Shown here: one piece after another, positions 24,771-60,906 of the stretch
Layout: each line of letters opens with the position of its first letter
Numbering within the stretch: the first letter of the stretch is position 1
DNA from: Sipunculus nudus
Lineage: Eukaryota; Annelida; Sipuncula; Golfingiida; Sipunculidae
Assembly: GCA_026874595.1 (NCBI GenBank)
Contig: CM049310.1
Coordinates: 28,443,058 to 28,507,057, forward strand
Length of the DNA stretch: 64,000 bases
Direction of reading: 5' to 3'
Notes under the pieces: model-generated
Seen by the model: the letters and a program-made list of their open reading frames with translations, nothing else
Databases searched by the model: none
Told to the model about the DNA's origin: nothing
Position numbers and translations under genes: made by a program

Positions 24771-26892
24771 CTAAGTAGTAACACCAGTGACGAATCCCTT
24801 GTCATCCACGGTGAAGTTATAATCATAAGGAGGAGGTTGAGAATCAGAAGGAACCGTCATCCCGGTGATGTACCCGGCCTCGTTCCGACGTAGAGTTGCG
24901 TTGTAATGGGACATGTCACCACCTGAGGATATGACAAACATGGGGATCTGATTTCCTCCAAGACTGTAATACTCAGCTACCAGCAGGAACCAGTCCAGGT
25001 TTGTTGGGTGACCTCTCTGTGTCCTCTCCACCGCAAAGTCCAGCATCAGTTTGGAGTCAGAGAAGTATTGGTTTGACAGGGTCGCAAACGACTCATGAGG
25101 GGCTCGGATAAAGAATCCCAGGGCGTTACGGATGTGGTTCTCTTCACGCTTTCCCTCACCATTCTTGAAGAAATTATCCATAGCTGCATTCCAGGACCCC
25201 TGGCCATCCCACCAGCCTTTTTTCTTAAACAGTTCCTGTGTCTTCTGTACGTCATATCCGTGGTTTACGGGCGACTTCCAAACCACCGTATCGCCAGTGC
25301 AGCGTGCCAGTATTTCGTACTTTCTCACAAACAATTTTTTTCTGTATGCCTTGGCCAAGGGCTGATCCAACTCATTGTGACCAACCTCATGAGCCAGAGC
25401 TAATAAAAATGACATGGCAGACGGACTTCTATTGGCATCTTTGCAGACCACACAGTCATTAGGAAATGAATTTTCACCTGACTCGGCGCCGTGAAAGATG
25501 TTGACACCGGACTCTCGCATTGTATTATACTTCCACTGTTTTCCGCGTAGGTAACCGGCTTGACTGATCCGAGTTACAGAATAATAAACAGGATTCTTCA
25601 TTTGAAAGAAATCATATATCAACTTTGTTTTGTGTAGTGGGGCACGATTATTGTTGACTATAAAGATACCATGGTCCCTGAACAGTCCGTGGTCGTAACT
25701 TGTCTGATTTGTTAGAGAAGCCAATTGAGCTCGGTTTGCAGCAGTATCCGGGCGGGATTCCAACATAATGATCCAGATATAACCAGCAAACCAAGCACAA
25801 TCATCATTCACCCATTGTTTCCGTACGAAATACTGGGGGAATTCACGGACAAGGTTTGCATAAAAATTGTATACCTGGTTTCTGTCATTTTCGCTACTGG
25901 TGTAAATGTTGTTAACGTATTTCTGGATCTGTCTATTCAGGTCATATATACGGTTATAGAAGTCGTCATCTGTCTTTAAGGTCTCACCAAAATCAGAAGG
26001 ATGTGATCTGATCATGCGCAGTATTTCACTTTTCACCTGAGCTATTTTGTCTACTCCATAGAATATTACAATGTCACCATGTTGACCTGATGTTATTAAG
26101 TCCATAATTCCATCACCGTTAAAATCAGCAATTTCAGGCGCTTGGTGTTCCTTGAATGTACTGCGTACGTTTATTGCTTTCCCTGTTTCCAATGTTAACC
26201 GTGATTCACCAAAATACAGTTTCTCTTGCTGTATGCACATTCCAAAGTATCCCCAGTTGATACTGTACACTAGGTCCATTTGTCCATCTTTGTTTATATC
26301 TAGAATTCGTGGAAACCTATTGTACGCCCTCTCTCCCAAATTCAACGCCCTTTTCTTTCCGTTAAACCTTGGATTTGTTTTACTGCCAGCGTTTGGATAG
26401 TAGTTGAATTCACCGTACAGCTGGCCTGTAATGATGTCTGGAAGTCCATCACGGTTCCAGTCACCCACATCGAACCTGTTTTGATCAATCTTACCAAGTG
26501 AGACTTTGGCGTCGAATTTATCCTGGCCTTGTGCCGGCTTACTTGGATAGTACACTAAGTTTTTGTCAGCTGTAAGAATAATATCTGGCTTGCCATCCCC
26601 AGTTATATCTGTGTAGGCAAACCCTGTTTTTTTGTTTCCTCTGACTCCAGTGTCGATAGGAACCGAGTTAGCAGTTACAGGAACAGGAGGCTCCAGCTGA
26701 CCCGAGTTCTGGCGATAGAAGAAGACTAGTCCGTCCGTGGCCACCAGAAGGTCCTGTGTCCCGTCCTCATCAAAGTCGGTCACTCTGGTCACAGCACTGA
26801 CGGGGAGTTTCAGCTCCGTCATGTCAGTCATCGTGAACTTTTGTTCTGGCTTGAACACTGTCGTTAACGTCCAGGAGTGCCCTGCTGTGACT
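24771..26892 (-). CDS. Gene A exon 3 (VCBS repeats and HEVGH domain, to stop)
   Basis: Acceptor TTTCATTACAG precedes base 26892. The split codon AG|A gives Arg47 and continues VTAGHSWTLT. The open frame runs upstream to a Met at 26942, but that part lies in the intron. The stop is TAG at 24771..24773. The last ~45 residues contain two similar short motifs, GYITGMTV and GFVTGVTT. Confidence 0.92.
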
Positions 26893-28221
26893 CTGTAATG
26901 AAATTGTTCACTTAATAAAATACTAAAGATTTCTATTGACATTTATTTCAATTTTTTTTCTTTAACTTAAGATAAATAAATTTGTATGCTATAGGCGTGT
27001 GGGTCCCAGAAATATTCTCGCACGTTCATGTTTACTTTTGGTTGTAGTTAATTACTAATCCAGCATGATTTCTTTTCAAACATTATTTTGACATACAGGT
27101 ATGATGGATCTGATGATAATTATGTAAAGGATTAATGAATTTATTAATTACATAAATAATCATAGTCTCCTGGCTTTTGTTGTCTAGGTCTATATACTTA
27201 GATTAAGATTCCAATGGAGACGAATAATTCCATTCCCAAAAATTAAATAATGGTGAGTCACCAAAATTCAAATGATATTTCTTTGTCAAAACATTATACA
27301 ATGCGATTTGGGAATTGTAACCCATATGATACTGAAAGAATGAAATACTGGTGAAGATGATTTTCTAATGCTTCTGCTGTAGTTCATCTCGATTTCAAAT
27401 ACAACTCTTTATATGTATCTGCTGACATGGCAAGTATGATTAGACCCACCTGACACTACCCCACCCTTTCGACACCTCTTCAGGATCATATTTACCATGA
27501 CTGGAACAGCCTGTAAAAAGAGGAACCATCAACACATTTCACTTCAATGAAAAGCATTTCTTACAGAAGTTCACCGTCGACCTGGCCACGCCCATCAACT
27601 ATAACTGACAGTTGACTTCGGGCAGGGAACTTTAAACACACTCAGATCTCCATTTTTAAACAACGTGTTATGAAGAGCGGCTTTTATTGACGAGTTCCTA
27701 GGTATGGCTTATTTTTTCAACTGACGATCGACAAATTAACCGTTCACACGAATTTGTAATTTGCCTTTGTAATATTCCAAATAATATATCTTTATCTTTT
27801 CACCTCTCATTTATTCACATAACATCATATACACATATAGTGATTCAGTTATTTGCATATTAGGCAAAGTTATTTGCATATTTGTTAAAGTTCTTATTGG
27901 TATGGACAGTTCCCCATTTTCAATAGGATTTTATAAATTGTAACAATCTATAGCACAGTCTGTAAATTATATAAATCAAGAAAGTACTAAATGCAGTTTC
28001 ATAAATTGGAAAACTGAGCAGGGATTTTATTAAAAACTAAAAATATCATTGAGACAAAGAAAGTTTTATTCACAAAGAAAGTTATTTTCACAATATTCCC
28101 TACTATTTTGCATGTTGCATATACAAATCAAATTGACATCACCTGCGGTGATTTCCTCGGCGGCCGTATCACTCAGTGATGCCAGCATTAAACAGAACCA
28201 AACGTGCCACTTTGGTTTCAT
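24771..28221 (-). CDS. Gene A: secreted VCBS-repeat zincin-like protein, 753 aa, three coding exons
   Basis: Coding exons are 28143..28221, 27450..27510 and 24771..26892 (minus strand), joined by GT-AG introns of 632 and 557 bp in phases 1 and 2. The product starts with a signal peptide (MKPKWHVWFCLMLASLSDTAA, cleavage likely near 21), then a short Cys-containing segment (GCSSHGKYDPEEV). Five DxDxDGxxD calcium loops of VCBS/FG-GAP type follow at residues 86-94, 142-150, 191-199, 245-253 and 303-311. A C-terminal domain carries AHEVGHNELDQP (His548, Glu549, His552), the zinc-binding and catalytic pattern of zincin peptidases. A conserved HESFATLSNQYF (Glu647) is a plausible third zinc ligand of gluzincin type. 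A CVVC pair (527, 530) precedes the active site. The family's function is not known to me; a secreted or extracellular-matrix metallopeptidase is inferred. All catalytic motifs are intact and no frameshift was seen. Gene B is its paralog. Confidence 0.9.
27450..27510 (-). CDS. Gene A exon 2 (61 nt)
   Basis: Found by homology to the gene B exon of identical length. The acceptor is TTTTTACAG before 27510 and the donor is CAG|GTGGGT at 27450/27449. It encodes Gly(split)-CSSHGKYDPEEVSKGWGSV and begins the Arg codon. The phases match exons 1 and 3 exactly, which is strong support. Confidence 0.88.
28143..28221 (-). CDS. Gene A exon 1 (signal peptide)
   Basis: ATG at 28221..28219 opens 26 codons plus one base, ending AAEEITA-G at the donor GCAG|GTGATG. 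Lys residues, a hydrophobic core (VWFCLMLASL) and a small-residue c-region make a typical secretory signal. The same AAEE-x-x-A-G ending closes gene B exon 1. An upstream in-frame Met exists (28299), but a pyrimidine-rich TTATTTTTTCCAG sits at 28232, just 5' of the chosen ATG. The 5' UTR may therefore be spliced. Confidence 0.85.
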
Positions 28222-28260
28222 ATTGATGAGTCTGGAAAAAATAACAGTGAGGGAGCACTG

Positions 28261-28268
28261 TTTATATG
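28261..28268 (-). promoter_or_regulatory. Candidate TATA box of gene A
   Basis: CATATAAA on the minus strand, 40 nt before the gene A ATG, with a TCACT initiator-like word about 15 nt downstream. An alternative reading is that this lies in a 5' UTR intron ending at the CAG near 28232. Confidence 0.3.
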
Positions 28269-28269
28269 T

Positions 28270-28885
28270 CGTGGTCGGGTTTTTTAGTGCGGCTGTCAAA
28301 CACTAAAAACGCTGTCGATTTGACAACCGTAGTTTTCGGTTTAACAAAATTTCGACTATAACGTCTCTCTTCCTTTGACGAGACTGAAATCGATGGGGTT
28401 TTAATAACATGTGAAGTGCTTATGAGAGGGCCTTGAAAATTTAATTATGACCGGCGCCGGGTCATGTAGAAAAACAATTAAGATTTGCCACTTATCTTCT
28501 GCGACAGAATTAATATTGTGGTTTATTCACTTCTTGTGAACCCTCCAGTCGTATTAACACAACAAATCATGTCTTTAGTTGTTATGTACTGTTACTTACG
28601 ACTTCTATATCCCATATATATAAGAAATGTGTAGGTACCATCTGTTATTTTAGGCAAATTCGAAATAATAAAGTCTTACAACCGCCTTTGTCGCCTTTGC
28701 CTCTTTTCTATAAAAAATTGTTGAAACTAATTAATTTTTGCCGGCGACCTGACGTAATTATCACTTTTTCATTTTTATACTCGCTCGTTTTCGACACATT
28801 CAACACCATCAACAACACCATCAGAAAACGATTGAGTCAATTAGTGGACGGTAAGACAGACGACCAGGAAGCCTGGCAATAATGA
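28270..28885. other. 5' flank of gene A
   Basis: No gene recognised. It contains one short plus-strand ORF (28688..28882) without identifiable features. The upstream regulatory region of gene A probably lies here. Confidence 0.4.
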
Positions 28886-30050
28886 GTAACAGATGTCCTC
28901 AAATCTTCAAAGTAGCTTAATGATTAACAAATGTCCTCAACACCGGCTTCTGAGGATCAGGGGTAGAGCATAGGACTCATAGCCGGGTGATCGTGAGTTC
29001 GAATCTCAGCCGAAGCGATGTGATTTTTCATGGTCGGCCCCCACCAAGGGTGAGCGCTCTTCAGGCTTAAAAGGAAGGCCGTGCCCAACAGCCGGGTTTC
29101 ACTCGCAAACGAGTGCGCCTTTCGGGGGTTCCTCAGTGGTATGATCCAGCAATGGGGACGATTACGCACCCAGGGCCCGCTGGTGCAGTAGTCACCGGGC
29201 GTGGTTGACGCCAGGATATAAAATGAAAGGAAGCATGTGACACTGCCCTGTATCGTAGTCCGAAACCGAGATGGAATTCTGCAGATGTACATATACATAA
29301 ACGTAGTTAGGTAAGCAACAAACAATGGAAAAATATAAAAAAAAACCTCCATAAAAAAGACATATTCTCAACTCATCTTAGTGGCGCGATGATTAACAAA
29401 TGTCCTCACGTCAAAGTAGCGTGATGATTAAAAGTAATACTACTGATTCACAAATGTTGTCAATTCGACAAAGTAGCGCAATGATTGAAAGTCATCCTCA
29501 ACAAATGTTCTCACCGGGCGTGGTTGACGCCAGAATATAAAATGAGGAAACATGTGAGACTGCCCTATAACGTAGTCCGAAACCGGAATGGAATTCCGCA
29601 GATGTATATATTTATACATATACTTAGTTACGTTAAAATTAAAATTAGAAGCGGTTACCTCCATAAAAAACAAATGACCTCAACTCATCTTAGTGGAGAG
29701 ATGATTGACAAATGTCCTCAACTCGTCAAAGTAGCGAGATGATTAAAAGTAATACCACTGATAAACAAATGTTCTCAACTCGTAAAAGTAGCCCAATGAT
29801 TTAAAGTCATCCTACTTGATGATAAACATTGATAAACAAATGTCCTCAACTCGTCAAAGTAGCGCGATGATTTAAAGTAATACAACTGATAAACAAATGT
29901 TCTCAACTCGTAAAAGTAGCCAAATGATTAAAACTCATCCTACTGATAAACAAAGTTTAAACTCGTCAAAGTAGCGCGATGATTAAAAATAATACTACCG
30001 ATTAACAAATGCTCTCAACTCGTCTAAGTAGCGCGATTATTAAAAGTAAA
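28886..30050. repeat. 57-bp minisatellite, array A (degenerate, interrupted)
   Basis: The unit is ACTGATTAACAAATGTTCTC, AACTCGTCAAAGTAGCGCG, then ATGATTAAAAGTAATACA. Copies are more degenerate than in array B (32895..33480) and are interrupted by a tRNA-derived SINE at 28948..29270. The body/tail text of that SINE recurs inside the array at about 29513..29620. Confidence 0.9.
28948..29270 (+). mobile_element. tRNA-derived SINE
   Basis: The 5' ~73 bp fold as a tRNA-like head: acceptor halves GCTTCTG and CCGAAGC, A-box-like GGGTAGAGCATAGG, anticodon-loop CTCATAG and a perfect B-box GTTCGAATC. It is followed by a non-tRNA body (CCCACCAAGGGTGAGCGCTC ... GGGTTCCTCAGTGG ... GTTGACGCCAGGATAT). Mismatches in the anticodon and T stems and the attached body argue against a functional tRNA. 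It is inserted in minisatellite array A. The 3' limit is approximate. Confidence 0.75.
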
Positions 30051-30420
30051 GATATGAGAATGTGAAAAAGAAACGCCCAAACCTTGTTTAAGAACATAAT
30101 ACGAACCTGATTAAGTCAGAATGGTAATCTTCACTGTATGAAGGCTCTCCCAATAACTGAAGTTTTGTCAATTTTTTAGACAAATTTATAGCATTAACAG
30201 GTAGAGTGAATAACTTTAATGCCCTTGGTGTATTTGCATAATAAATACTTAACTCAGATTTTCAATGCCATAGGTGTACATAGGGGTATCATTTAATTAG
30301 CATATAAATTACCTTTTGCTGGAAACTGTTTCAGCTACCTTGCGTTCTAGCTTTTCCTTGTCTGCAACAATATTGATACATGTTTGTAGTGACGGGACTG
30401 AATAATTTACCATAGAGTTT
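30051..30420. repeat. Array flank, copy 1
   Basis: AAAAAGAAACGCCCAAAC ... GTAATCTTCACTGTATGAAG ... TTTAATGCCCTTGGTGTAT ... AAATTACCTTTTGC is duplicated at 33481..33745. The adjoining TTTCAGCTACCTTGC ... AGTGACGGGACT segment (30328..30405) recurs separately at about 34643..34709. Confidence 0.88.
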
Positions 30421-30480
30421 TAAAACCAATCGTCTCTATATTTATATTGCTTGCCCCTATAGGTATCTCTTTTTCCTAAC

Positions 30481-30481
<1 letters not shown>

Positions 30482-30549
<68 letters not shown>
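30482..30549. repeat. (AT)n microsatellite
   Basis: Pure AT run next to the 3' end of the LINE remnant. Confidence 0.97.
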
Positions 30550-30550
<1 letters not shown>

Positions 30551-31254
30551 TGATAACTGTTTATCTTTTTTTTAATTAAATCTTTCCAATCATTAGGGAT
30601 TGCCTCCTGCAGGCCCTTTAATGGAATATAACCAAGGAGTTTACAGACTAAACTCCTTGAATATAACATATATTGTGCTTTTTACAACTGGAGGCTATTA
30701 TTTGTGAGATAGGTTAGTTGAAACACAGGTAAGTCCACCGTAGTGCCGCAAATAAAAATTAGGGTTTACTCTACATTTTCCATTCACTATTTGTTTTTAT
30801 CCTTATTATCCACATTATCTTCAAACTTTCTATAATTATATCCAAGTCTGGCAAAACAATGCCACCTTCTTCTCGTTCACGTATCAGTGCTTCATATTTT
30901 ATTTTTGGCTTCCTTCTGTTCTGGATGAAATCAGTCATACAACTCTTTATATTCTTTATAAAACCTGTCGGTGGATCTTTTATATCTAAAGCATAAATCA
31001 ACTTTGAAATACCGAAAGTTTTCGATATCATATTCTTGCCATATATTTTTAGAGCCCTCTGTTTTTATATATTTAGAAGAGTACTTAACTTATCACACTT
31101 CGTGTTCAAAATTGAGATCATGGGAAAGTATTCCATTGTAATTATACCATATCTCCAAGATCTTTATAACTTCCTTTTGTATACCGACCCATTTATTATT
31201 TTGGCTTCGTTTGATTTTTCCCAAGCCATGCTGCTTCACATTTAATATAATTTA

Positions 31255-31365
31255 TCCAGGGGCGTCAATATAGGGGTGGGGGTGGGGCGGGGGGGGGGTA
31301 TATATCCCCCCCCCATTTTTTTGCAAGAGAGGCATGGTCAATTGATATCATCCCCCCACTTTTCA

Positions 31366-31401
<36 letters not shown>

Positions 31402-31513
31402 AAATGAAAAATACGTTTGAATAGAATATAGACATACTCCTTGTATATGTGTGGGTGTGTCGGCGAGTCCCCCCCCCCCCCCCAACACCCTGGAAGAAAA
31501 ATTGACGCCACTG
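31255..31513. mobile_element. MITE inside the LINE, TIR CAGKGGCGTCAAT
   Basis: The left end CAGGGGCGTCAAT (31257) and right end ATTGACGCCACTG (31501..31513) are inverted repeats with one mismatch. They are flanked by the 6-bp direct repeat AATTTA (31249..31254 and 31514..31519). The interior has G-rich and C-rich runs and an AT microsatellite (31372..31399). Removing it rejoins LINE sequence. Confidence 0.75.
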
Positions 31514-32178
31514 AATTTAGCTCCCCAGACGAACCTTTTGCATATCTTTCTGAAATTAATCTGACTTTTTCATTGAGCTTTCGTCCTTAAGAAAAAAAAT
31601 GTATTGTCTGCGTATATGGATTGATTTAATTCTATACCGTTGATTAAAAAACCTTGGATACTGCTAGGTTGACGAACCATAATTCCTAAATTTTCTATTA
31701 CCATTTTATAAAGGTAGGAGCTAATGGATCCCCTTGATGTGTGCCCCTCTCCAGTTGAAAATAACCTGTGGTGAAGCCACTGTTTATGACACAACTCTCT
31801 AAATCTGTATGCATTATACGAATCCTTTTTCGAAATGATTCACCAAAACCAAACATTTTTAACGCAGCAAAAAGAAAGATAATCGACGGAATTAAATGCA
31901 GTAGCAAAACCATTTGCCAAAAAATAGTCTGTTCATTATTTAAGTAACAATATTCCATTAGATCTTTTATTAGCCGGTTTGAATCTGAAATTCTTCTTCC
32001 TTTAAGAAATGCAGGTCTGGTCATTATCAATAATCTTTGGCAGACAAATTCTTAATCGCTCAGTAAGCAGTTTACTTACATTTATCAAACTAATCGGTCT
32101 CCCAGAAGAGAGTACTCTATCATCTTTACTTGGCTTTTCTACGGGTGTTGTAACAGCCTGGCATTGGCTCGAAGTAAG

Positions 32179-32385
32179 TAGTGGCGAATCCCGGCGTGGT
32201 GGGGGTGGGGGGGGGGTCAAGGGGGTTCTGACTCCTCCCCCCCCCCCTTGGAGCCGAAACAACCTTCTTTAGAGTTTCAAACCAGATTTTTGCGACCCTG
32301 ACACCCTCCTTCCCAATTTTTTAAGGTTTTCTTTAAGTCTTCCTGGGCGCGGCCCTCCCCTTTGTAAAATCCTGGATCCGCCCTA
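32179..32385. mobile_element. MITE inside the LINE, GGCGGATCC-type TIR
   Basis: A 207-bp element starts TAGTGGCGAATCCCGG and ends CCTGGATCCGCCCTA, flanked by the direct repeat GTAAG (32174..32178 and 32386..32390). It belongs to the same end-family as 60025..60235 (CAGGGGCGGATCC) and 21632..21679. It splits the LINE just upstream of the RPISL motif. Confidence 0.75.
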
Positions 32386-32894
32386 GTAAGGGAACATTCC
32401 TAGTAACATTTGTTCTTTTGTTTATTTCCGGAAGTTTTGTTGTTTTTATTTTTTTGGGTAATATTTTTAGGATATCTCACTTTGCAATTTCTCTCATGCA
32501 TTCGCCGGCATCATAATAAGATAATACAGGAATATCGAACGTGTCAAATAGGCTCTGACAATCTCTCTCACTTATATTTAATTTTCTAGAATTCTTTTCA
32601 GTATAAAAATCTTTAATTTCCTTCATAATACTTTCCGGATTAATAACTTCCATTTCATCAACTATCAATTTCCTAAGGGTAGATTTTGTTTTATTTCTTT
32701 TTTCAATAAAAATAGTTTGTACTTCTTTCCCCTTATTCAAACCACTGAACCCTTGATCATATAATTAAACCCTCTGCGAATTTTTCGATACTCCTCCAAA
32801 TCTTAACATTTTTCATACGTTGATAAAAAGGCACTATTATATTCTGATAAATCTTTCTCAGCTATTTCCATATTTTCTCCCAACAATGTTCCCA

Positions 32895-33480
32895 ACTTTT
32901 AAAAGTAGCGCGATGATTAAAAGTCATACTACTGATTAATAAATGTTCTCAACTCGTCAGAGTAGCGCGATGATTAAAAGTAATATAACTAATTAACAAA
33001 TGTTCTCAACGCGTCAAAGTAGCACGATTATTGAAGGTAATACAACTGATTAACAAATGTTCTCAACTCGTCAAAGTAGCGCGATGATTAAATGTAATAC
33101 AACTGATTAACAAATGTTCTCAACTCGTCAAAGTAGCGCGATGATTAAAAGTAATACAACTGATTAACAAATGTTCTTAACTCGTCAAAGTAGCGCGATG
33201 ATTAAATGTAATACAACTGATTAACAAATGTTCTCAACTCGTCAAAGTAGCGCGATGATTAAAAGTAATACAACTGATTAACAAATGTTCTCAACTCGTC
33301 AAAGTAGCGCGATGATTAAAAGTAATACAACTGATTAACAAATGTTCTCAACTCGTCAAAGTAGCGCGATGATTAAAAGTAATACAACTGATTAACAAAT
33401 GTTCTCAACTAGTCAAAGTAGCGCGATGATTAAAAGTAACACTACTGATTAACAAATGTTCTCAACTCGTCAAATGTTCT
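32895..33480. repeat. 57-bp minisatellite, array B (homogeneous)
   Basis: About ten units of 57 bp (ACTGATTAACAAATGTTCTC, AACTCGTCAAAGTAGCGCG, ATGATTAAAAGTAATACA). The central units are nearly identical, in contrast to the degenerate array A, indicating recent homogenisation or expansion. Confidence 0.95.
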
Positions 33481-35955: not shown

Positions 35956-36077
35956 AAAGATGTAATACAGTTTTTAAACAGAACAATTGGAACACCTAAA
36001 ACTATTTATTCTCCATATTTATAGTTTCTTGTAAGTGAATAAAACATGCTGGCCCCTATAGGTATATCCATTGAATC

Positions 36078-36080
<3 letters not shown>

Positions 36081-39939: not shown

Positions 39940-40516
39940 TCATGCTACAGTCTTTTCCAATATCTTGGAAAAATGGATATAAAATTCCTTACTTAGACCA
40001 TCATTTCCAGGTGATTTGTTGGATTGCATAGACTTAACAGCATTGAATGTCTCATCCAGGGTCACTGGGCCATCACACATGGATGAATGTTTTTCTGTTA
40101 GAGTTGGCACATTAACTTTACTTGAATAATCTTCACATTGTTCTGCTGTGACAGTAGAAACCCTTGTAAAACGATGCATATAAGATTTTCTTCTTTCATT
40201 TAGAATGTCACTTTGGGAGGTTTATATATCATTATTGCTTTTTAGTAATATTCGTACATGGTTTCACTTCTTGATTAACTTGTTGATACTCTTTTACTAC
40301 TGCGTCTCCCGGATGACCACAATTCCTTTCTAATTCATTCAGTTTAGTCTCAAAAGCGATTCTATTTGATCTTCTTTCTTTAGCTTTTGACTTAAAATAT
40401 TCTACTGTAAATTGCCTTATTTTGAATTTCGAAAATTCCCAGCAGTTTGCAGGATTATTATATGAATTTTGTTCTTTCCATGCAAAAATGTTGTTATTTA
40501 ACTCTTTGACATACAC
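39940..40516 (-). mobile_element. L1-like LINE fragment (linker and RT fingers)
   Basis: Minus-strand frames give WEFSKFKIRQFTVEYFKSKA (40440-40370), then TLDETFNAVKSMQSNKSPG and NDGLSKEFYIHF (40060-39965), the hallmark KSPGxDGLxxEFY start of non-LTR reverse transcriptases. It is frame-shifted and truncated by R3 on its 3' side. Confidence 0.85.
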
Positions 40517-40731
40517 TTCATCCTGTAAAAGAGAATTATTAAATTTCCAATACCCTTTCCTCTTTTATTTTCATTTAAGACTTGTTACTATTAATTAATA
40601 GCCGAATGGTCTGTACCAACTGAAGGCAGAATATCAGTAGACTGTACAGATGGCTGAATATTATACAACGGGTGTTCCCGGCAAGAACCCAGGTCATCCG
40701 GCGTTAGTGAATAGTAAAGCGATGATATATG

Positions 40732-42829: not shown

Positions 42830-43374
42830 TTTAAAAAAATAATCTGGTCGTCTTTGTGTCAAGGGCAATATCTTTTAACATCGGGATTTCTTATCCTCCA
42901 AATATCTATGAGCTCAAATTCTTCAATGAATTACTGTATTTGCTTAATAGACCTTACTTTCAGTTTTTCCCCATCAGTGTCAATTTTATCCATACAAACA
43001 TTAAAATCTCCCCCAATAATAAGCCTTATGTAAGTATCAAGTACTAGCTTTCTTATTTCATCATGCAGCTTTTGGATATACTCTACCTGTTCTATTTCTG
43101 TGTTTGGTGCATATATATAACATAATAAAGTGTGACACTCTTGAATAATACATTTTAGTAGGATATATCTACCATCAGTATCAACTATTACCTGTTCAAA
43201 TTTAAAATCTGCTTTCTCCGCAATCATATACATAAAACCTCGACTTGCTGATGTACCGTGTATAAAATAAACTTGCCCACGCCATTGTTTAAACCAATTA
43301 TTCACAATTTTTAAATCACTCTTATTCAGTGACACAATATTAATGATATTATCTGAACAATTATATGATACCAC
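42830..43374 (-). mobile_element. L1-like LINE fragment (endonuclease)
   Basis: The minus-strand frame contains WRGQVYFIHGTSASRGFMYM, then LLCYIYAPN and IIGGDFNVCMDKIDTD. These are the SRG, YAPN and GGDFN motifs of AP-type endonucleases of non-LTR retrotransposons. The frame is cut at about 42830 by the plus-strand LINE end. The catalytic core is incomplete on both sides, so it is a pseudogene. Confidence 0.85.
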
Positions 43375-43789
43375 GATCCATTTGTTTCCTCACCACTGTT
43401 ATGCCATAGCATTTGAGGGACCTTCACTTTTTGTGGCATTAATAGAGTTACTTGTTACATGATTAAAACAAGAGTATACAGAGTATTCTTTACATAAATA
43501 AACAAATTGAGATACAACAGACATTCTTGAATAATATTTATCAATTAGCTTTTGAGCCTACTTGATTTATATCCACTCTTTTATTAAACATATAAGATCT
43601 AAATGAAATGTGTTATCCCACAAATTATACAGTTTCTACGAACATTTAGTTCTTAAAGCATAAACTCTGGAGAAATAAATATACTACAGCCACAATAAGT
43701 GATGCAAAAGAAAACAAAAATATAGTCTCTTGCATCCCTTTCTTAAATCAGAATGGTAACAAACAATAAACAAATTTATCTGATACCAA

Positions 43790-49074: not shown

Positions 49075-49980
49075 CACTGAGGGTTTCAGAAATGCTAAAG
49101 ATCACAGAGGGTGTCAGAAATACTTAACATCACTAAGGGTTTCAGGAATACTTAACAACACTGAGGGTGTCAGAAATACTAAACATCACTGAGGATGTCA
49201 GAAATACTTTACATCACTAAGGGTGTCAGAAATACTTAATATCACTGAGGGTATCAGAAATACATAACATCACTGAGAGTGTCAGAAATACTAAACATCA
49301 CTGAGGGTGTTTGAGTTACTCAACATCACTGAGGGTGTCAGAAATGCTAAACATCACTGAGGGTGTCAGAAATACTAAACATCACTGAGGATGTCAGAAA
49401 GACTAAACATCACTGAGGGTGTCAGAAATACTAAACATCACTGCGGGTGTCAGAAATACTAAACATCACTGAGGGTGTCAGAAATACTAAACATCACTGC
49501 GGGTGTCAGAAATACTAAACATCTCTGAGGGTGTCAGAAATACTAAACATCACTGAGGGTGTCAGAAATACTAAACATCACTGAGGGTGTCAGAAATATT
49601 AAACATCACTGAGGGTGTCAGAAATACTAAACATCACTGCGGGTGTCAGAAATACTAAACATCACTGAGGGTGTCAGAAATACTAAACATCACTACGGGT
49701 GTCAGAAATACTAAGCATCACTGGGGATGTCAGAAATACTAAACATCACTGCGGGTGTTAGAAATACTAAGCATCAATGAGGGTGTCAGAAATACTAAGC
49801 ATCACTGCGGATGTCAGAAATACTAAACATCACTGCGGGTGTCAGAAATACTAAACATCACAGAGGGTGTCAGAAATACATAACATCACTGAGGGTGTCA
49901 GAAATACTAAGGAATATTAAACATCACTGAGGGTGTCAAAAACTAAACATCACTGAGGGTGTCAGAAATACTAAAAATCA
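49075..49980. repeat. 28-bp minisatellite, about 32 units
   Basis: The unit is CACTGAGGGTGTCAGAAATA then CTAAACAT. Central units are near-identical (variants GCGGGTGTC, GGGATGTC), while edge units at both ends are degenerate, as expected for a locus homogenised from the middle. The period is not a multiple of three and no ORF runs through. Confidence 0.97.
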
Positions 49981-51130: not shown

Positions 51131-52430
51131 CACCGTGTCCATCCACAAATTCTTCACGGATGATAACTTAAGTTTGGATTGAAATATGGATCCACAGTTA
51201 CAATATAATATAAATTTATTTATTTTACATGGATTATACAGAAAGTTATTTAACTCATCAAGGCACTCTCCATGGCTCAGATGATGGCGTTCGAATGTTT
51301 GTAGGGCTGGAGGAAACCAGAGAACTCGGAGAAAATCACCGGCCATGGACGGGCAGCTACAACCCACTCTCATAGCCACAGCGGGGATCGAACCCGGATC
51401 GCCCACCAAAAGAGCAAGAGCAGTATTGATTCTGAGGTCATTGGTTAAGGTTACAGGACTCACTTCTTTAAAAAGAATGTGGAGGCGTTTTAAGCCAAAA
51501 TTTTCATCCAAAACCTTCCATCTTGCACATATAGCTCGCCAATAGGAAGCCTGTTGTTTTTAGGGTCACAAGGTCAAAGGTCACGGGGGACATTTGTCCA
51601 CAATTTTTTTCCCGGATGATATCTTCAGTGTGGATTGACATATTGATTTAAACTTGACTTATATATGGCTCGCCACTTAATAGGGAAGTAGGGAAAGAAC
51701 TCTACTGATTTTGTGGTCACAAGGTCAAAGGTAAAGGTCAAAGGACCCATCCGTTCTTAAATTAATTTATGGATGATAAATCCAGTTTGGATGACATATT
51801 GGTTACAAACTTAATTTATTAATGGCCCAACGCTAAAGTAAGAATTTTGTTTCAGATTTCGGGGTCATTTTGGCAAAGGTGAAGGTCACAGGAGCACATA
51901 TATGGATTGTTGCGGATGCATTGTAAACCAAACCTTTCATCCCAAACCTTCCAACTTTCATATATGTCTAACCTACCCAAAGGGGAAAAATTGTAGATTT
52001 TGTGGTCACCAGTTCTGAAGCCAAGGTACTGGACCAAATTTCTTTAAAATGCTTTTGGACACATTTTAAACTGAACTCTTTTCCAAAACCTTCACTTTAA
52101 CATATGGCTCACTGACCAACAGGGGAAGAATGCTGTCGATTTTGAGGTTCCAAGATCAAAGGTCAGTGCCACAGAACCCACTTCTTAAAAAAGGCATGTG
52201 CCCGCATTTTTATCAAACCTTTTACCTTTTACTTATTGATCACCCAACAATGGGGGAAGAATCACATTGAATTCGACATCACATGGTAAAAGGTCAAGGT
52301 CACAGGACCACCCCTAGATTTATATGCTGACCAGGCTTACATTTTAATACATCAGATGTAATTAAGCCTCTGTTATTGGGGTGCTTCACTCGTATATTTA
52401 TACACGACTATCACTGATTCAGACCGTAAC
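51131..52430 (+). repeat. R6: GGTCACAAGGTCAAAGGTCA-module element
   Basis: Diverged ~140-170-bp modules contain AACCTTCCATCTT, CATATAGCTCxCCAATAGG, GATTTTGxGGTCACAAGGTC, AAAGGTCAAGGTCACAGG and CGGATGATAxxTxxAGTTTGGAT. It ends with TATATGCTGACCAGGCTTAC and TTAAGCCTCTGTTATTGGGG. The inverted-repeat arms at 21680 and 23307 belong to this family. A SINE is inserted at about 51240..51430. Confidence 0.8.
51240..51430 (-). mobile_element. tRNA-derived SINE with conserved central domain
   Basis: On the minus strand, GGTTCGATCCC (B-box; plus-strand GGGATCGAACC near 51384) is followed by a body with TTTTCTCCGAGTTCTCTGG and TTTCCTCCAGC. This closely resembles the conserved central domain (TTTTCTCCGGGT...GGTTTCCTCC) shared by many animal tRNA-SINEs. 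It is inserted within R6; limits are approximate. Confidence 0.65.
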
Positions 52431-53010
52431 ATCCTTGTTCATTTATTCAAATAATTTTTATTAATTGGGAAGGCATATGCGGACACTGTTTCACGGGCCG
52501 GTTTGACAAAGCAGATTTCACTAAAGGAAGAATCATGCCATTTTGACGATGTTTAAACAAATTCATCAATAAAACAGATGGGGAATGTTAAACTGGTTTA
52601 TTTAAAATATTAAGTTTCTTGGTCAGGATTTCGCCTCTTCGTGTAGTCTTGTCAAAATATCTTGAAATAAATAAACAGATATATACTATAGTAATAAACT
52701 GACAAATTATTACACTAGCTGAAAAAAAATATGCTAAAACATATCAGACAAATCGTGCAAGTAATACGTGATTTTCTTACCAGTGCAAAGTATAAAAAAG
52801 TACCTGTATCCTGGTGTATTAGCTTAAATATGTTTATACAACACCATTAAAGGGTTATATGTAATTTGAACATTTACAAAAGAACATGTATAATTTATCA
52901 ATTCTTATCAGTTTTGTACACCACAGATAGCTCAATATTCAATAATCAAAATTGATTATTATTTTTATTTACCATGTATTACATCTATAGGCCTGTCTGT
53001 ATTGACTGTC
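52431..53010. other. Intergenic, nothing recognised
   Basis: AT-rich, no gene. Confidence 0.5.
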
Positions 53011-53013
53011 TTA

Positions 53014-53484
53014 GGAACCGTCTTTTTTGTCAACATTTACGGGGTAGAACAAAGTAACCCCCCCCCCCCCCCAAGCAGATCATTAATATGTCGATAAAAG
53101 CTACATTAGCGGTATCTCGTATTACTACATGAAACCAGTATATGTTGGTCTGATAAAGAAGTACAAGGGTGAAAGAAGACCCACTGGTATTTAGCTGCTG
53201 TTGATACCTAATAGGGCAAAGGTTATACCACGCATGCTGTGTGTAGCAGCTTGGCTCAGGGATAAACACAGGGACCTGTGTACACAGGTAGTACGTTTTT
53301 TAAACTGACCTTTAACATGCAGATGATCAATTGAGAAATAAGATAGACAATATTTCAAAATGTTCAGCTCATCAAAATATCAACAGCTTTGCCCAACCAA
53401 AGTAGAACATAGTCTTCCAACCCACCCCCTCCCTATAGAACTCTTTGTTCTACCCCGTAAATGTTGACAAAAATGAACGGTCCC
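53014..53484. mobile_element. PIF/Harbinger-like MITE
   Basis: A 471-bp element has ~40-bp inverted ends: GGAACCGTC, then TTTTTGTCAACATTTACGGG and GTAGAACAAAG, mirrored at the right end CTTTGTTCTACCCCGTAAAT ... CGGTCCC. The inner 25+ bp are identical. It is flanked by TTA on both sides (53011..53013, 53485..53487), the TWA target duplication of PIF/Harbinger. A C14 run lies near 53060. There is no transposase ORF. It lies 131 bp downstream of the gene B stop codon and may contribute 3' UTR sequence. Confidence 0.82.
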
Positions 53485-53550
53485 TTAGTGCCCTTCTTAT
53501 GTTGTTAACTATAACTGTTGTGAAAATGGATACATACACCAATTACTTTT

Positions 53551-53556
53551 TTTAAT
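53551..53556 (-). terminator. Candidate polyadenylation signal of gene B
   Basis: ATTAAA on the minus strand, about 60 nt after the gene B stop codon, is the nearest plausible poly(A) signal. No canonical AATAAA was seen between the stop and the MITE. Confidence 0.35.
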
Positions 53557-53615
53557 GTGGTTTTTGTTGCATTCGTTACCAGATGATGCTGGTATCTTAC
53601 CTATGTTGACCCTTA

Positions 53616-55743
53616 TTACTGAGTAGTTACACCAGTGACGAATCCCTTGTCATCCACGGTGAAGTTATAAACATAAGGAGGAGGTTGAGAATCAGAAGCA
53701 ACCGTCACCCCGGTGATGTACCCGGCCTCATTCCGACGTAGAGTTGCGGTGTAATGGGACATGTCACCACCTGAGGATATGACAAACATCGGGATCTGAT
53801 TTCCTCCAAGACTGTAATACTCAGCTACCAGCAGGAACCAGTCCAGGTTAGTTGGGTGACCTCTCTGTGTCCTCTCCACCGCAAAGTCCAGCATCAGTTT
53901 GGAGTCGGAGAAATACTGATTGGAGAGTGTTGCAAAAGACTCCTGGGGATTGCGAACGAGATATCCCAGCATATTCCGAATACTGTTTCGCCTGTAGTCT
54001 TTGCCTTGTCTGCTACTAAAGAAATCATCCATTGCCGTTCCCCAGGCACCTTGGCCATCCCACCAACCATTTTCCTTAAACACTTGTTTGGTATTCTGTG
54101 CGTCATATCCGTAAGTTACGGGCGACTTCCAGACGACCGTCTCGCCAGTGCTGCGTGCCAATATTTGGTACTTTCTCACAAATAATTCCTTTCTGTAGGC
54201 TCCAGCTTTTGGTTGGTCCAGCTCGTTGTGTCCAACTTCATGAGCGAGAACCCCGAGAAACTGCATGACTGATGGACTTCTGTTGGCTTCCTCACAAACG
54301 CTACAGTCACCAGGGAACGAGTTCTCCCCGTAGTTGCCTCCTGTAAAAATGTTCACACCGGACTCACGCATAGCATTGTACTTCCAAGGCTTACCGTGTA
54401 GGAAATCTTTCTGTGTTATAAAACACAGGGAGTAGTAAACTGGATTTTTCATTCTGAAGAAATCATAAATCAACTTTGTTCTATGCAGAGGAGCCTTGTC
54501 ATTATTAATTAAGAAGATACCATAGTCCCTAAATAGCCCGTGGTCGTAGCTGGTTTGATTGGTAAGGGAAGCCAAGTCAGCACGGTTGCTTGCATTGTTT
54601 GGACGAGATTCTAGCATTATAATCCATACATACCCAGCAAAATAAGTTAATGTAGACTTTTCCCAAGACTGCCGTGTAAAATATTGAGGGAAGTCCCGAA
54701 CAAGCTTGGCATAATATTGGTATACATTTTCTCTCTCCGCCTCACTACTCTGGTGCACGTTTCTTACAAATTCTTGCAACTTTCTATTCTTTTTATAAAT
54801 AAGGTTGTAGAAACTCTCATCTGAATTCATTGCCCTTCCAAGATCAGATGCCTGGGATTCGATCATATTCCTTATTTCGTTTTGCGCATTTCCTATTACG
54901 TCAACCCCATAGAATATGAGCACGTCCCCTTTTTCACCGGATGTAATAAGGTCTACAATGCCGTCACCGTTGAAATCTGCAACTTCGGGTGCCTGGTGCT
55001 CTTTGTATTCACTGCGCACGTTAATACCTTGGCCAGATTGAAGCTTGAGGCGTGATTCATGGAAGTTGACATTCTTCCCCTGAAAACACATCCCAAAATA
55101 TCCCCAGTTGATGCTGTACAAAATATCCATTTTACCGTCCTTGTTAAGATCCAGAATACGTGGATACCTGTTGTAAGCCATATACCCGAGGTTTAAAGCC
55201 TTTTTCTTGCCGTCAAACCTTGGAACTGTACTACTGCCCACGTTTGGATAGTAGTTAAATTCGCCCTCAGACTGACCAGTTATTACATCTGGAAGACCAT
55301 CACGGTTCCAGTCACCCACATCAAACCTGTTCTCATCAATTTTACCCAGGGAAATTTTGGTGCTGAATTTAATCTTTCCTTCTTCCATTACACTTGGATA
55401 GTATACCAATCGTTTCTTTGCAGTTAGAATGACGTCCGGGTGTCCATCCCCAGTTATATCTGTGTAGGCAAACCCTGTTTTTTTGTTTCCTCTGACTCCA
55501 GTGTCGATGGGAACCGAGTTAGCAGTTACAGGAACAGGAGGCTCCAGCTGACCAGAGTTCTGACGATAGAAGAAGACTTGTCCGTCCGTGGCCACCAGAA
55601 GGTCCTGTGTCCCGTCCTCATCAAAGTCAGTCACTCTGGTCACAGCACTGACGGGGAGTTTCAGCTCCGTCATGTCAGTCATCGTGAACTTTTGTTCTGG
55701 CTTGAAAACTGTCGTTAACTTCCAGAGTTGATTTGAAGTGGCC
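53616..55743 (-). CDS. Gene B exon 3 (VCBS repeats and HEVGH domain, to stop)
   Basis: The acceptor TTTTCATTAAAG precedes base 55743. Split codon CC|G gives Pro48, and the frame continues ATSNQLWKLTT. A TAA lies in frame just upstream in the intron. An ATG-initiated open frame would start only at 55682 (MTDMTELK), which misses the signal peptide and the first ~68 residues. The stop is TAA at 53616..53618. Confidence 0.92.
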
Positions 55744-58232
55744 CTTTAATGAAAATACAGGCTTATATTGTTATTGTTAAATATTATTTGTTAGCAATAT
55801 AATAAAAGCACATTAAAAGAAGAGCTAGAGGTATGCTAACATATTAGTACTGAGGGTATAATAAAGCTAGAGTACAGTGGTACAACCAAGAAGCAAAGAG
55901 AAACAAATACTTTGCAAGGTTAGAAAAATATTGATATTTTGAGCAGTATAATTTGGGATGGGGTAGAAGAAACGAGACATATTATTAAAAAATTCTTTGA
56001 CCAGAAATTTATAAGTTATAAAAATCTACAGGGCTGTATATCTCGAACAGGAAGACGAACACGTAAGTAAGAGACGTTGGAAGCTTTAAGAAATATGGTG
56101 GATGATAAAAAATAGTTATACTGTCCTGTACAAAAATGGTTCCGGTATTTTTTTTAATTATTCCGAATAGAATCGACAAATTGTGTACATGAGAATTCGG
56201 AAGTAGGGGGAATCGACATTTAATCAGAAACAGGCGGTGATGACACGTTTTCATAAATCGTGGAGGCCTGTTATGTTAATTGACGTTGATATATAAAAAT
56301 CCTTAGCAAAATACTGATCGGAAGGTTAAAGCCGTCCCTAAACGCGATTATATAAGAAGATCAATAAACTTTTGTGGTTGATATATTGATATAATTTTTT
56401 AGAAATAACCAAACAATTACATATTCCTGGTAGGGTGTTTTTTACGGATTTTGAGACGGCCTTTGATTCAAAAGATCACACGTTTGTATTTACTTTTCCT
56501 TTACAAAGCGACTTTGTAAACATACCAATTAATGTAGAAAGCTGTGTCTTGAATTATGGATATTCTACTGACTTCTTTCTACCTGAATGATTCACATGAC
56601 AGCGTCATCCAGCGTCATTCAGCATCAAGGCACAATTTTAGTGATTGAAATGTTATTTTGTATGATAAGACAGAATAACAATGTTAAAATTGACGAGCTT
56701 GGAGTTAGCCTTTTGCTGATAATTTTTTTCAACGTCTTTCATCATTTTTTTCAATGTTTTCCTATTGTGTGTCTTTCCTGTTGAAAACTGATATTTTAGT
56801 TGTCTTGTTGAATCAAAATTTAAGTTTCAATTTTAAGAAAGAAATGTTTAATTGAATAAAAGTTTTAGCTTCAGTTTAAGGATGGATAGAAATATATACT
56901 TTATATATAAGGGTTTTCACCGATAATGATACCTTAACATAGAATCAGGAAATCGAGAGCATTTTCCTGAAGTGGGAAAGTAGAAATCTTATCTAAAAGG
57001 CACAATTATGGTGGTAAACAGCCTTGCTATAGGTCCCCCGGTCGATTAATTGTGTAAAGATGTTAAAATTTTTATTATCACTTTCATTTGCTCAGGGTGT
57101 TAACAAATATTCAAATATTTAAGTTTAATAGGTGATTTAAGACAGTCAGGACTAGGGGACATTGAATGTAGATTTAAACTCAAAGATTTATGTATTTAAA
57201 AAAACCCTATCAAATCGAAATGAGAGTAGAAGGTCATATAACAATATTTTTCATTATAACCAAATGGAAGGATTAGAAATGATATTGATATTTGCCGTAT
57301 ACTAGGTAATTTATTCATCATTACTATAGAAAATGATTATGACATTTTCAGAAGATACCCGATATAGCATCAAAGATAACTCACTACGACCCAGTAGGCC
57401 TATATATATAAAAGTGACCGGTAACTGAAAAGTGTACAAAGGTATATCGATGCGATACATTAAATCTGTTCCAGATATTTTTGATGACGAAGGAAATATA
57501 ATCTTCTATTTAGATGAACTCCCGCAAAATAGTTTCCTCAGCTGGTGATAATTGGTCATACATGCTGTATCACTTGGTGGTGAGGAAAACAATGGTATGG
57601 AAAACAGGTTTTTCAGATCAAGATTCGGTCTAAACCCGGTTCGGCTCAGTCAAACCAAAGTACTCTGTTGTGTGCATGCAGCCAATGTGTCAGCAACTGT
57701 CTCAGCGTTACAGGACAAACTTTATAAAGCCATTTATAAAAGTTTGTTAGTGTTATTATCCTGGTTCAGTATAAATATTGAATAATATTCTAGGGTTTAA
57801 TGTAGTTTATATAAGTTAAATATAAAGAAAATAATATTTGCCCGCAATGCTCTGGTTATTATGAATCCATTGTGTATTTATTTTGTGAGTACGATAGGTC
57901 ATTCAAGCTATATCATAACATCATTTGTTGACTTATACCTTTACCCGGTGCGGGGAACATGAGAATCATTTAGCTGTTACAGCCATCACAACATGATTCA
58001 AATCTAGTGAATCTCATTTTGTTATAGTATAAACAATTAGTATTTTAAGCTGGAGACTTAGATAAATATAAAATAGTCTTTCAGTATACAAGGGAAATAG
58101 AATACCTAATAACTAAAAAAAAAATGAATAAAACAATGAAGGGGAAAAATAGAAATAGTTAAAATAATTGCAGGAATCTTAATTGCAGAAACTTACAGGA
58201 ATCTGAAAATAGCTGATGATGATATATGTTTA

Positions 58233-58280
<48 letters not shown>

Positions 58281-60906
58281 ATGTAAATGCCGTGTATGTA
58301 TTTGAAATGCGTGACGAAACTTCGATTTGCCATTCTCTTCAAAGAGGAGTGTGTTGAACGTATCTAAATGCCTCACTGAGCACAGGGTAATTAAGGCCCT
58401 TTGTACACAAGCAATGTTGTCCAATCTTTTATATCGCACCTGCAATTAAAATAGCGGCTAATATTTAGGTTCCAGTTTTAGATAATTCTAAGGATAAGGC
58501 AAATACAATTCACCGAATCAGGTAAGTACTTGCAGTTAATGTGATTTTTCTACTTTTCGGCCCATATTTTCCCTTGCGTAAATCGGAAGTTTGCGATTAT
58601 AAGGCTTTTATTAATAAATATATAGGGAATGGTTTTGGTTTTCAGACTTGCTTGCAAATAAGCAGCATTTTCGGTAAACCGACTTGCAAATAAGCGGTTT
58701 CGTCAGTATATTCATATTTTGGATATGGGCATAAATGTGTGCAGATTGTTCACATTACGTTAATCGTGTGTTTGTAATTATAAATCATTTTGAAAATGTA
58801 TAAAATAAATACTATAGAATTTAATTATTAAAAAAATAATAAAAAGCAGAATTGCAATTCTATAGAGAATGAATCATCAAGTTGATATGTCCTTTGGTTG
58901 GGTCATTCATATTTCAGCATGTAATGTGTAGAATCTCAAACGCCTACCTCAATGGATGAGTGAATGAACTGAAAGGAATCTCAGTCTTAATTCCTTTCCA
59001 TCCATCTGTGTCCAGCTGTATTTTTATGAACAATTTTATTAGTTACACATTGAGAGAGAAAATTATGATATGAGGTAGACTTTCAATGTGCTTAATTTGC
59101 TTAAGAAAAATGAACCACACTCTTACATATTATTTTTGAAATTTTTTAATTATTTTAAATTATGAGAAATGTACGTTTTACAACATATCAGTCCCTCTGA
59201 TGGTGGTCAGATGCAAAAAACGCTTTAGTTGACAGCTGCTGATTTGATATTGTCATGCTAAAACTGAAACACATAACCAGTTGAATCAATGATGGTTATT
59301 CATGCAGGGACACATCTGATTGGTCAGATCATTGGAAAGAGTAACAAAGTTTGTGAAACATAAACTTGAGATTTATAAAAAATATTTATTACCATATTAT
59401 GGCAGTCACTTTTATATGTTGCTTTCTGGGAAATAACTGATTTAAAATAAACTTTAAAATTGAATTATCCCTAGAAAAAGGTGGACAATCCCTTAAAACA
59501 GAGGAACACGAGAACAGAGTATAGAATGGATTAAACATCATTTCTAAAGAATGGGAAGAAAAAAAGGCCATACTCACGGGATATTTCCCCAGCCCTCGGT
59601 CACTTCCTCGGGATCATACTTGCCATGTGAAGCACAGCCTGTGTAAATTAATCTTAGATGTAACAGCAATCCGCCCAACTCTAAAACCTTTAGCTCTAAC
59701 AGCCATCCGTCCAACTCCTAAACCTTTAGCTATAACAACATCTTTATGACTCTAAAACGTTTAGCTGTAACAGCCATCCATCTTTCAACTGTAAAAACCT
59801 CTAGTTGTAACAGAGATCCATCTAACTCTAGAAACTTTGGCTTGAACTGCCACACTTCTTACTCTTAAATCTGTTGCTTTATGAAATACCTTCCCGTTTC
59901 CGTTTTTTAAAATCAAACTAGTTTATTATGTTGGAACTGTTGCCATTGAACATTAAGCTAGTTCCGCTTTTACTTTGTCGTACATCGGCTTTGAACGAAG
60001 ACTTCTAATTCTGATTACAAATTTCAGGGGCGGATCCAGGATTCAGGAACAGGTTGGGTCAAACCCAGGAGGACAAATGGCAACCCAACAAAAAAGGTTA
60101 CCCGGTCTAGGTCCCTAAAAGGGGGTCAAGGCCGCAAAAAAAAAAGAAAATATCTGAAACCCTTAATAAAGGTTGCGGCTGCTGAGTAAAAGGGGAGTCC
60201 GGACCCCCTGGACCCCTCCCCTGGATCCGCTTCTGGCTTTTCATGGACCAGTGGTTGTAACCATTTGAAGCCAGAATAGTGTTTTATTATGTAAAGAGAG
60301 GAGGAGACAGTAATGCTATCATGTCATATATATATATATTTATTTATTTATTTATATAAGTGTGGGAAATGTAACACGAGTAAGTCGTTCTTCAGGTAGA
60401 CATTTAATTGCTTCAGCATGGCTTCAGAATTCAAAATCAAACATCACAAACAAATAGAATATATTTTATAATCTGAGAGAGGTGACTTTGTGACTTAAAT
60501 CATTTTATTGTCCTCTAGTAACCAGCTTGTGTTCCGATATATGCAGACCCTTCCCAAAACATATCCGGAAGCTCTGGGAATATATTTCTTCATGTGCAAT
60601 TTTAACGTAAGCAAATAAATTATCATAAATAATAAATAAAAACATTGTTTGTTTTGCTTATACATCGCTATCTTGATGCCAGCATGTCTACGCCTGAAGC
60701 TGTCGAAGGTTTACATTGTTTTAAAATGTTAGGTTTACGTTGTCTACAGGCAAGTAGAATTCTTTTACGCCTGTAATAGGATGAGATGCGTAGGCAACTG
60801 GTGTAAATACCTGGTGCAACTTACCGGCGTTCATTTCTTCTGCAGCTATTTTACTCATCACAGATAACATAAAAAACATCATCTCCATCATCTTGAAAGA
60901 GCCCAT
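53616..60906 (-). CDS. Gene B: secreted VCBS-repeat zincin-like protein, 756 aa, three coding exons
   Basis: Coding exons are 60825..60906, 59578..59638 and 53616..55743 (minus strand), with GT-AG introns of 1186 and 3834 bp in the same phases (1, 2) as gene A. The product has a signal peptide (FKMMEMMFFMLSVMSKIAA), then G-C-ASHGKYDPEEV. Five DxDxDGxxD calcium loops lie at residues 87-95, 143-151, 192-200, 246-254 and 304-312. The zincin motif AHEVGHNELDQP (His549, Glu550, His553) is intact, with QESFATLSNQYF (Glu649) as candidate third ligand and a CSVC pair (528, 531) before it. It differs from gene A mostly between the last calcium loop and the HEVGH motif. The introns are enlarged by a LINE remnant, microsatellite and MITE. 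Function is unknown; an extracellular peptidase-like role is inferred as for gene A. Confidence 0.9.
55870..57580 (+). mobile_element. Decayed L1-like LINE in intron 2 of gene B
   Basis: Plus-strand frames, antisense to gene B, give scattered LINE text. It includes NKYFARLEKY near 55905, FFTDFETAFDSKDHTFVF (about 56441-56494, the (I/L)DFEKAFD motif of reverse transcriptase), and IEMLFCMIRQNNNVKIDELG (56643-56702, the region before YADD). A later piece reads RYIKSVPDIFDDEGNIIFYL (57450-57510). It is heavily frameshifted and accounts for much of the extra length of this intron over that of gene A. Confidence 0.65.
57581..59577. other. Intron 2 of gene B, 5' part
   Basis: AT-rich intronic sequence with an AT microsatellite at about 58236..58280. 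No further gene or repeat was recognised. Confidence 0.5.
59578..59638 (-). CDS. Gene B exon 2 (61 nt)
   Basis: The acceptor is AATTTACACAG before 59638 and the donor is CCC|GTGAGT after 59578. It encodes Gly(split)-CASHGKYDPEEVTEGWGNI and the first two bases of Pro. It has the same length, phase and near-identical peptide as gene A exon 2. Confidence 0.88.
59650..59880. repeat. ~45-bp tandem repeat in intron 1 of gene B
   Basis: About five degenerate units of CTAAAACCTTTAGCTGTAAC and AGCCATCCATCCAACT. It lies immediately 5' (in gene sense) of exon 2. Confidence 0.8.
60025..60235. mobile_element. MITE, GGCGGATCC-type TIR, in intron 1 of gene B
   Basis: Starts CAGGGGCGGATCCAGG and ends CTGGATCCGCTTCTG, giving imperfect inverted repeats. 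The interior includes AAACCCAGGAGG and GGGGTCAAGGCC. No clear target duplication was found. It is a relative of the copy in the LINE at 32179..32385. Confidence 0.7.
60825..60906 (-). CDS. Gene B exon 1 (signal peptide)
   Basis: ATG at 60906..60904 opens 27 codons plus one base, closing AAEEMNA-G at the donor GCCG|GTAAGT. It shares the AAEE-x-x-A-G ending and phase with gene A exon 1. A Met-rich hydrophobic core (MMEMMFFMLSVM) serves as signal. Met6 is an alternative start, and an upstream in-frame Met at 61026 is not favoured because the intervening text is not signal-like. Confidence 0.83.

Follow-up and report, generated by a model that had tools for sequence, protein, structure and literature searches.

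We analyzed a 64,000-nucleotide stretch of DNA from the sipunculid worm Sipunculus nudus (assembly GCA_026874595.1, contig CM049310.1, positions 28,443,058 to 28,507,057 of the forward strand), referred to below as the window, with positions counted from its first letter. Two long open frames on the minus strand, at 24771-26942 and 53616-55745, belong to a pair of related genes, A and B, whose products join FG-GAP repeats with calcium-type loops to a C-terminal domain carrying a HExxH motif. Each gene has three exons on the minus strand, with GT donors and AG acceptors. Exon 1 of gene A (28143..28221) holds the start codon and a hydrophobic, signal-peptide-like N-terminal segment and ends at a GT donor in an open spliced frame; exon 2 (27450..27510) encodes the GCSSHGKYDPEEVSKGWGSV segment between AG and GT borders and has homologous peptides in other copies; and exon 3 (24771..26892) codes for the FG-GAP repeats and the C-terminal zincin-like domain and ends in a stop codon. 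Gene B has the same layout, with exon 1 at 60825..60906 (GT border, open spliced frame), exon 2 at 59578..59638 (homologous peptide and GT/AG borders, open frame), and exon 3, again FG-GAP repeats and C-terminal domain, at 53616..55743 (open frame, Pfam match). We placed exons 1 and 2 by splice signals and by homologous exon-2 peptides upstream of gene B and of four further copies (L009, L010, L011, and L012). The spliced frames contain no internal stops and encode 753 (A) and 756 (B) amino acids; together with the GT/AG borders, they confirm the two complete three-exon genes of the initial annotation, whose "short Cys segment" reduces to a single Cys encoded by exon 2 of each gene. The N-terminal hydrophobic segment suggests that the proteins are probably secreted.

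The repeats are recognized with high significance. Pfam FG-GAP_3 matches gene A with an expectation value (E) of 2.2e-21 and gene B with 2.7e-24 (76.6 and 86.0 bits against a cut-off of 26.9); Pfam FG-GAP also exceeds its cut-off in both genes, and no other Pfam family does. Matches to TcdB_toxin_midN and BBS2 fall on the FG-GAP repeats and were set aside as repeat similarity. Five calcium-type loops are present in each gene, spanning 26100..26777 from first to last in gene A and 54951..55628 in gene B (both minus strand). This number is the one first reported, when all five were written as DxDxDGxxD; only the first loop follows that pattern exactly, three others match D-x-[D/N]-x-D-G-x-x-D, and the match of the fifth, D-I-T-G-D-G, is looser. 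FG-GAP propellers are classically binding modules. In their significant matches and calcium-loop repeats, the A and B products resemble FG-GAP/VCBS propeller proteins (PF13517, PF01839). They differ in that none of these was found carrying a C-terminal domain of the A/B type, and among the plasmid matches listed the query was covered to residue 375 at most, short of the HExxH.

The C-terminal domain of gene A spans 402 amino acids (24774..25979, minus strand) and has no family match. It contains HEVGH (25377..25391; His548, Glu549, and His552), preceded at a distance of 18 residues by Cys527-x-x-Cys530 (25443..25454) and followed by ESFAT (25080..25094), whose Glu647 is the candidate third zinc ligand. 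The corresponding motifs of gene B lie at 54228..54242 (HEVGH; His549 and His553) and 53928..53942 (ESFAT; Glu649), also on the minus strand. Both genes thus show AHEVGHNELDQ and then ESFATLSNQYF roughly 95 residues downstream, as first described, and the residue numbers originally given for gene A (His548, His552, and Glu647) are correct on the spliced frame.

When the genome from which the window comes (1.43 Gb, 153 contigs) was searched at the protein level, 25 places matched. We could align 14 exon-3 frames, distributed over six contigs (C1, C2, C3, C4, C5, and C6), with identity to gene A over the aligned frames falling as low as 39%. At least three places (L021, L022, and L023) are broken by stops or frame breaks and were excluded from the alignment; L019 is a shorter frame, with one stop within its longer match. 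The copy number of the family is a lower bound. A and B are indeed paralogs, as annotated, yet "pair" is too small a term for a family of 14 alignable copies and at least three broken ones. The two genes and L010 follow one another on the same strand of C5, near 28.47, 28.50, and 28.52 Mb. L010 is a third tandem copy (L010:125-2251, minus strand; C5 28.524 Mb), its exon 3 lying some 25 kb past exon 3 of gene B and 17 kb beyond the end of the window, and in a tree built from the C-terminal domain A, B, L009, and L010 form a group with support of 98/96. Across the aligned copies, at E up to 1, FG-GAP_3 was found in all 14 and FG-GAP in 13.

Conservation across these copies picks out the residues that a zincin would need. 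Of the 14 copies, 13 preserve an intact HExxH; the exception is L010, in which the first His is replaced by Tyr (YEVGH). The Glu of HExxH, its second His, Asp556 (four residues on), Glu647, Asn654, Tyr656, and Asp659 (gene A full-length numbers) are invariant in 14/14, as are Cys527 and Cys530 of the C-x-x-C upstream. Since HExxH is kept in 13 copies, and Glu647, Asp556, Cys527, and Cys530 in all 14, at identities down to 39%, we conclude that these motifs are not chance occurrences. Eleven His positions occur in the C-terminal domain of gene A; the two of HExxH (His548 and His552) are conserved and the other nine vary across copies, which is the pattern predicted by a metal site. In a comparison of gene B with L010, the rate of nonsynonymous substitution (dN) lies below the synonymous rate (dS) in 11/11 windows; the frames are therefore under constraint. 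We note that the invariant C-x-x-C may be a disulfide or a second metal site.

The divergence of A and B is unevenly distributed along exon 3. Fourfold-degenerate sites differ at 8/52 in residues 17-122 and 10/56 in residues 614-723, against 77/125 between these segments (Fisher p 1.5e-12, an optimistic value, as the segment borders were set after viewing the windowed divergence); expressed as divergence, fourfold sites reach 0.18 in the 3' end versus 0.63 in the middle. The same pattern of low ends and high middle is seen for A versus L010 (p 3.3e-12) and for A versus L009, on another contig (p 3.8e-10). It is weak for B versus L009 (p 0.0045), not clear for B versus L010 (p 0.86) or L009 versus L010 (p 0.064), and absent from the pairs with L011 or L012 (p 0.1 or more in 9/9). 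At the DNA level, the similarity between A and B is concentrated in exon 3, and three small segments of 41-227 bp lie beyond it on the downstream side. This mosaic is best explained if the two ends of exon 3 were recently exchanged by gene conversion. Because the 3' end has been homogenized recently, the identity of ESFATLSNQYF in the two genes cannot serve as independent evidence of function, and the point rests on the distant copies. The initial argument from two copies is accordingly weak where it leans on that identity, and the conservation of the putative catalytic residues itself extends well beyond them, to the 14 aligned copies.

We then asked which kind of zincin the motifs resemble. 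Metzincins (astacins, ADAMs, and matrix metalloproteinases) are the common secreted animal zincins, and the A/B family shares with them HExxH and, probably, secretion. The family differs in having NELDQP after HEVGH, without Gly and His at the metzincin positions. An excerpt of PMC3890501 defines the metzincin motif as HExxHxxGxxH and the Asp-zincin motif as HExxHxxGxxD. We rejected the metzincin reading on the grounds that HEVGHNELDQP lacks the former, and the Asp-zincin reading on the grounds that neither G nor D stands at the positions of the latter. The motif of Glu-zincins, clan MA(E), is HExxH with a conserved downstream Glu, and these are found in 13/14 and 14/14 copies, respectively. 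According to an excerpt of PMC3650047, Pfam domains with HExxH in the majority of members are all predictable as zincin-like.

Based on the architecture and these residues, the reading that we consider somewhat favored by the evidence is that the family encodes multi-copy secreted proteins in which a calcium-loop propeller binds a target and a peptidase domain of the Glu-zincin type cuts it. The FG-GAP beta-propeller, presumably held by calcium, would bind extracellularly to a substrate or to the surface of a target. His548 and His552, on the HExxH helix, and Glu647, on a second helix, would together hold one zinc; Glu549 would activate water, leading to cleavage of a peptide bond. The glutamate stretch, P-x-E-x-F-A-T-L-x-N-x-Y, would be of the kind found in M90/MtfA. 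Copies may diversify by duplication, by divergence of the middle of the protein with homogenized exon 3 ends, and by occasional loss of a zinc ligand. The initial annotation had spoken of an active extracellular calcium-dependent peptidase-like family; architecture and residue conservation agree with that description, while "active," "calcium-dependent," and "peptidase" are properties that we infer.

The copy L010 bears on a different view of the family. It carries YEVGH, its frame is otherwise open and close to that of gene B, and it is perhaps a natural inactive copy. As its first zinc-binding His is Tyr, not all members of the family need be active enzymes. The proteins may be mainly recognition or scaffold proteins with a zincin fold (a pseudo-peptidase lectin or adhesin), in which the zinc site is structural or, in parts of the family, degenerating; the binding role typical of FG-GAP propellers and the presence of several broken copies fit this as well. 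Set against it are the retention of HExxH in all copies other than L010, the invariance of the HExxH Glu and of the candidate third ligand, and the variability of the other His residues, and we regard it as unlikely.

Within the preferred Glu-zincin reading, the closest likeness that we found is to M90 (MtfA/YeeI, PF06167). E. coli MtfA carries HEVAHKLD and DPAECFAVLSEYFF, and most M90 members compared show HE[VF]AH followed by LD and, downstream, P-x-E-x-F-A-x-x-S-x-x-F-F; the glutamate stretch of the A/B family, P-x-E-[SA]-F-[AT]-T-L-[AST]-N-x-Y, is M90/MtfA-like. The LD that follows HExxH stands one residue off relative to the A/B family, and the annotated M90 proteins compared, at 253-284 amino acids, are too short for an added propeller. 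The Pfam M90 model matches one of the 14 copies, L016 (E 0.08), over the glutamate motif. We also compared eight M90 sequences from E. coli and plasmids with a profile of the 14 copies. With hhalign, this gave E 0.14 (probability 0.4%) under standard settings and E 0.045 (probability 1.2%) when the first sequence defined the columns. Both matches cover only the glutamate stretch and some 35 preceding residues, and in both Glu647 pairs with Glu211 of MtfA, which we take to be a zinc ligand of that enzyme. When columns were shuffled, 6/300 and 16/800 shuffles reached the hhalign score and 12/800 placed an invariant Glu on Glu211; none of 800 did both. A plain hidden Markov model of the eight M90 sequences scored the 14 copies from 5.2 to -1.9 bits (best E 0.0088, in a search of 14, for gene B); among the alignments listed, the glutamate register is the same, and HExxH stands in the right order in some pairs.

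Elsewhere in the genome, the Pfam M90 search pointed to one weak place, on C12 (E 4.9). Here, a 95-amino-acid frame (L033:1369-1656, minus strand) carries LEYFAEASGVFF and matches Pfam M90 with E 0.0017, below the cut-off; a frame on the same strand, some 1.1 kb upstream, bears HEFAH (L033:2725-3063, minus strand). Because the C12 gene pairs an M90 glutamate signature with a nearby HEFAH, a weak glutamate signature can mark likely zincins. For orientation we also name M34 (the anthrax lethal factor type, Pro-Pro endopeptidases): a PDB chain of this kind is weakly matched by the M90 profile (E 0.044), behind the unrelated KCTD5, and MtfA is related to M34 according to the title of a paper cited in PMC9266454.

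Several results weigh against an enzymatic Glu-zincin, and against kinship with M90 in particular. The best M90 score among the copies is 13.0 bits (L016) against a curated cut-off of 26.2, and the whole-genome Pfam M90 search gave nothing over the cut-off, its sole scored candidate being none of the A/B-family copies. The hhalign probabilities are about 1% or less, and the HExxH region alone does not align with M90, its best match lying elsewhere and not being significant. The eight-sequence M90 profile also matches KCTD5, a BTB/POZ protein, with E 0.0013, and its weaker hits can accordingly be spurious. The spacing from the second His to the Glu is 59 residues in MtfA versus 95 in the A/B family. 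No significant similarity to any known peptidase was found, and a match of Pfam SNRNP200_wHTH to L018 (E 0.0022, under its own cut-off) beats every peptidase family in every copy. AlphaFold models, each built on an alignment of two rows (A and B), had mean predicted local distance difference test scores of 38.3 (gene A exon-3-frame residues 299-723, with B) and 36.8 (residues 420-665, with B) and are uninterpretable. Finally, the first zinc His is missing in L010. Taken together with the residue pattern, these results lead us to say that the C-terminal domain probably works like a Glu-zincin, perhaps an M90-like one; we do not call it a member of M90.

Searches for other relatives of the C-terminal domain were negative. 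Its roughly 400 residues have no family with a meaningful score in Pfam (newest models 2025), NCBIfam, or PHROGs, and the 14-copy profile has no match up to E 10 among PDB sequences. A single-sequence search of the PDB gave six weak matches, the best to a myxobacterial lectin (E 0.0029), in which no single stretch passed by itself; we read this match and that to SNRNP200_wHTH as chance. Pfam M48 matches gene B with E 0.31 over a stretch ending just after HExxH, a weak gluzincin match that, like that of M90, speaks for the Glu-zincin reading. Weak matches to Peptidase_M78 in L018-L020 were also taken for chance, as they cover domain residues 86-133, away from the HExxH at about 200. We rejected a bacterial or viral origin after peptide-pattern scans of prokaryote and viral contigs and tblastn of phages and plasmids revealed no relative of the C-terminal domain, although such scans mainly recover close relatives and support a true absence only weakly; a plasmid match in Paenarthrobacter (E 0.8) lacks HExxH and was taken for chance. 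The lack of significant fold or family evidence would fit a domain that adopts a different fold and whose HEVGH and Glu motif have been conserved for another reason, such as another hydrolase activity or a structural metal site to which the invariant C-x-x-C belongs. The C-terminal domain has 61 invariant positions, and the C-x-x-C and most of the 61 have no explanation under the zincin reading. Yet a Glu-zincin would be expected to show this residue pattern, and the glutamate motif lines up in register with the M90 motif that it resembles; we judge another fold to be improbable, more so than a non-enzymatic zincin.

The initial annotation was aware of no named animal family that joins VCBS loops to a zincin. 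This stands for Pfam, NCBIfam, PHROGs, and PDB sequences, a scope that does not extend to animal protein databases, and a limited open-access literature search of titles and abstract openings found no animal protein described as combining FG-GAP repeats with a zincin domain. The join of propeller and peptidase-like domain matches no catalogued family among those checked, and the individual parts are of known kind. As our searches covered only the collections named above and prokaryote, viral, phage, and plasmid DNA, the family may be a new member of one already catalogued in MEROPS, InterPro, or PANTHER, which would be compatible with the Glu-zincin reading. We give this a small chance, given that Pfam, with its newest models of 2025, holds no model for the domain.

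Other features of the window include two tandem arrays, located between genes A and B at 32885-33474 and 29830-30049, whose 57-bp units are almost the same, and a 28-bp tandem repeat of about 30 copies at 49075-49910. Short frames at 30771-32764, 39940-40564, and 42931-43389 resemble, as judged by eye, decayed reverse-transcriptase/endonuclease elements. An inverted repeat places the same translation of about 70 residues on opposite strands, at 21840-22265 (minus) and 23209-23517 (plus), and a duplicated segment has near-identical translated stretches at 3258 and 7017, 3.8 kb apart.

A more specific form of the Glu-zincin reading is that the family represents an undescribed animal branch of MtfA-type Glu-zincins, fused to a secreted, calcium-dependent FG-GAP propeller and present in more than a dozen copies, in which gene conversion keeps the catalytic end and the entry to the propeller common while the middle diverges. 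We put this forward tentatively and consider it, on balance, doubtful. If it holds, the family would consist of diversified peptidases that act outside the cell and whose recognition can be swapped, a design to be expected in defence, feeding, or matrix remodelling, and an MtfA-like Glu-zincin would be present in an animal. The extracellular peptidases of animals, whose zincins are usually metzincins, would gain a catalytic family, with the specific prediction that zinc is held by His548, His552, and Glu647, and the mosaic copies would offer a test case for how gene conversion shapes a secreted enzyme family.

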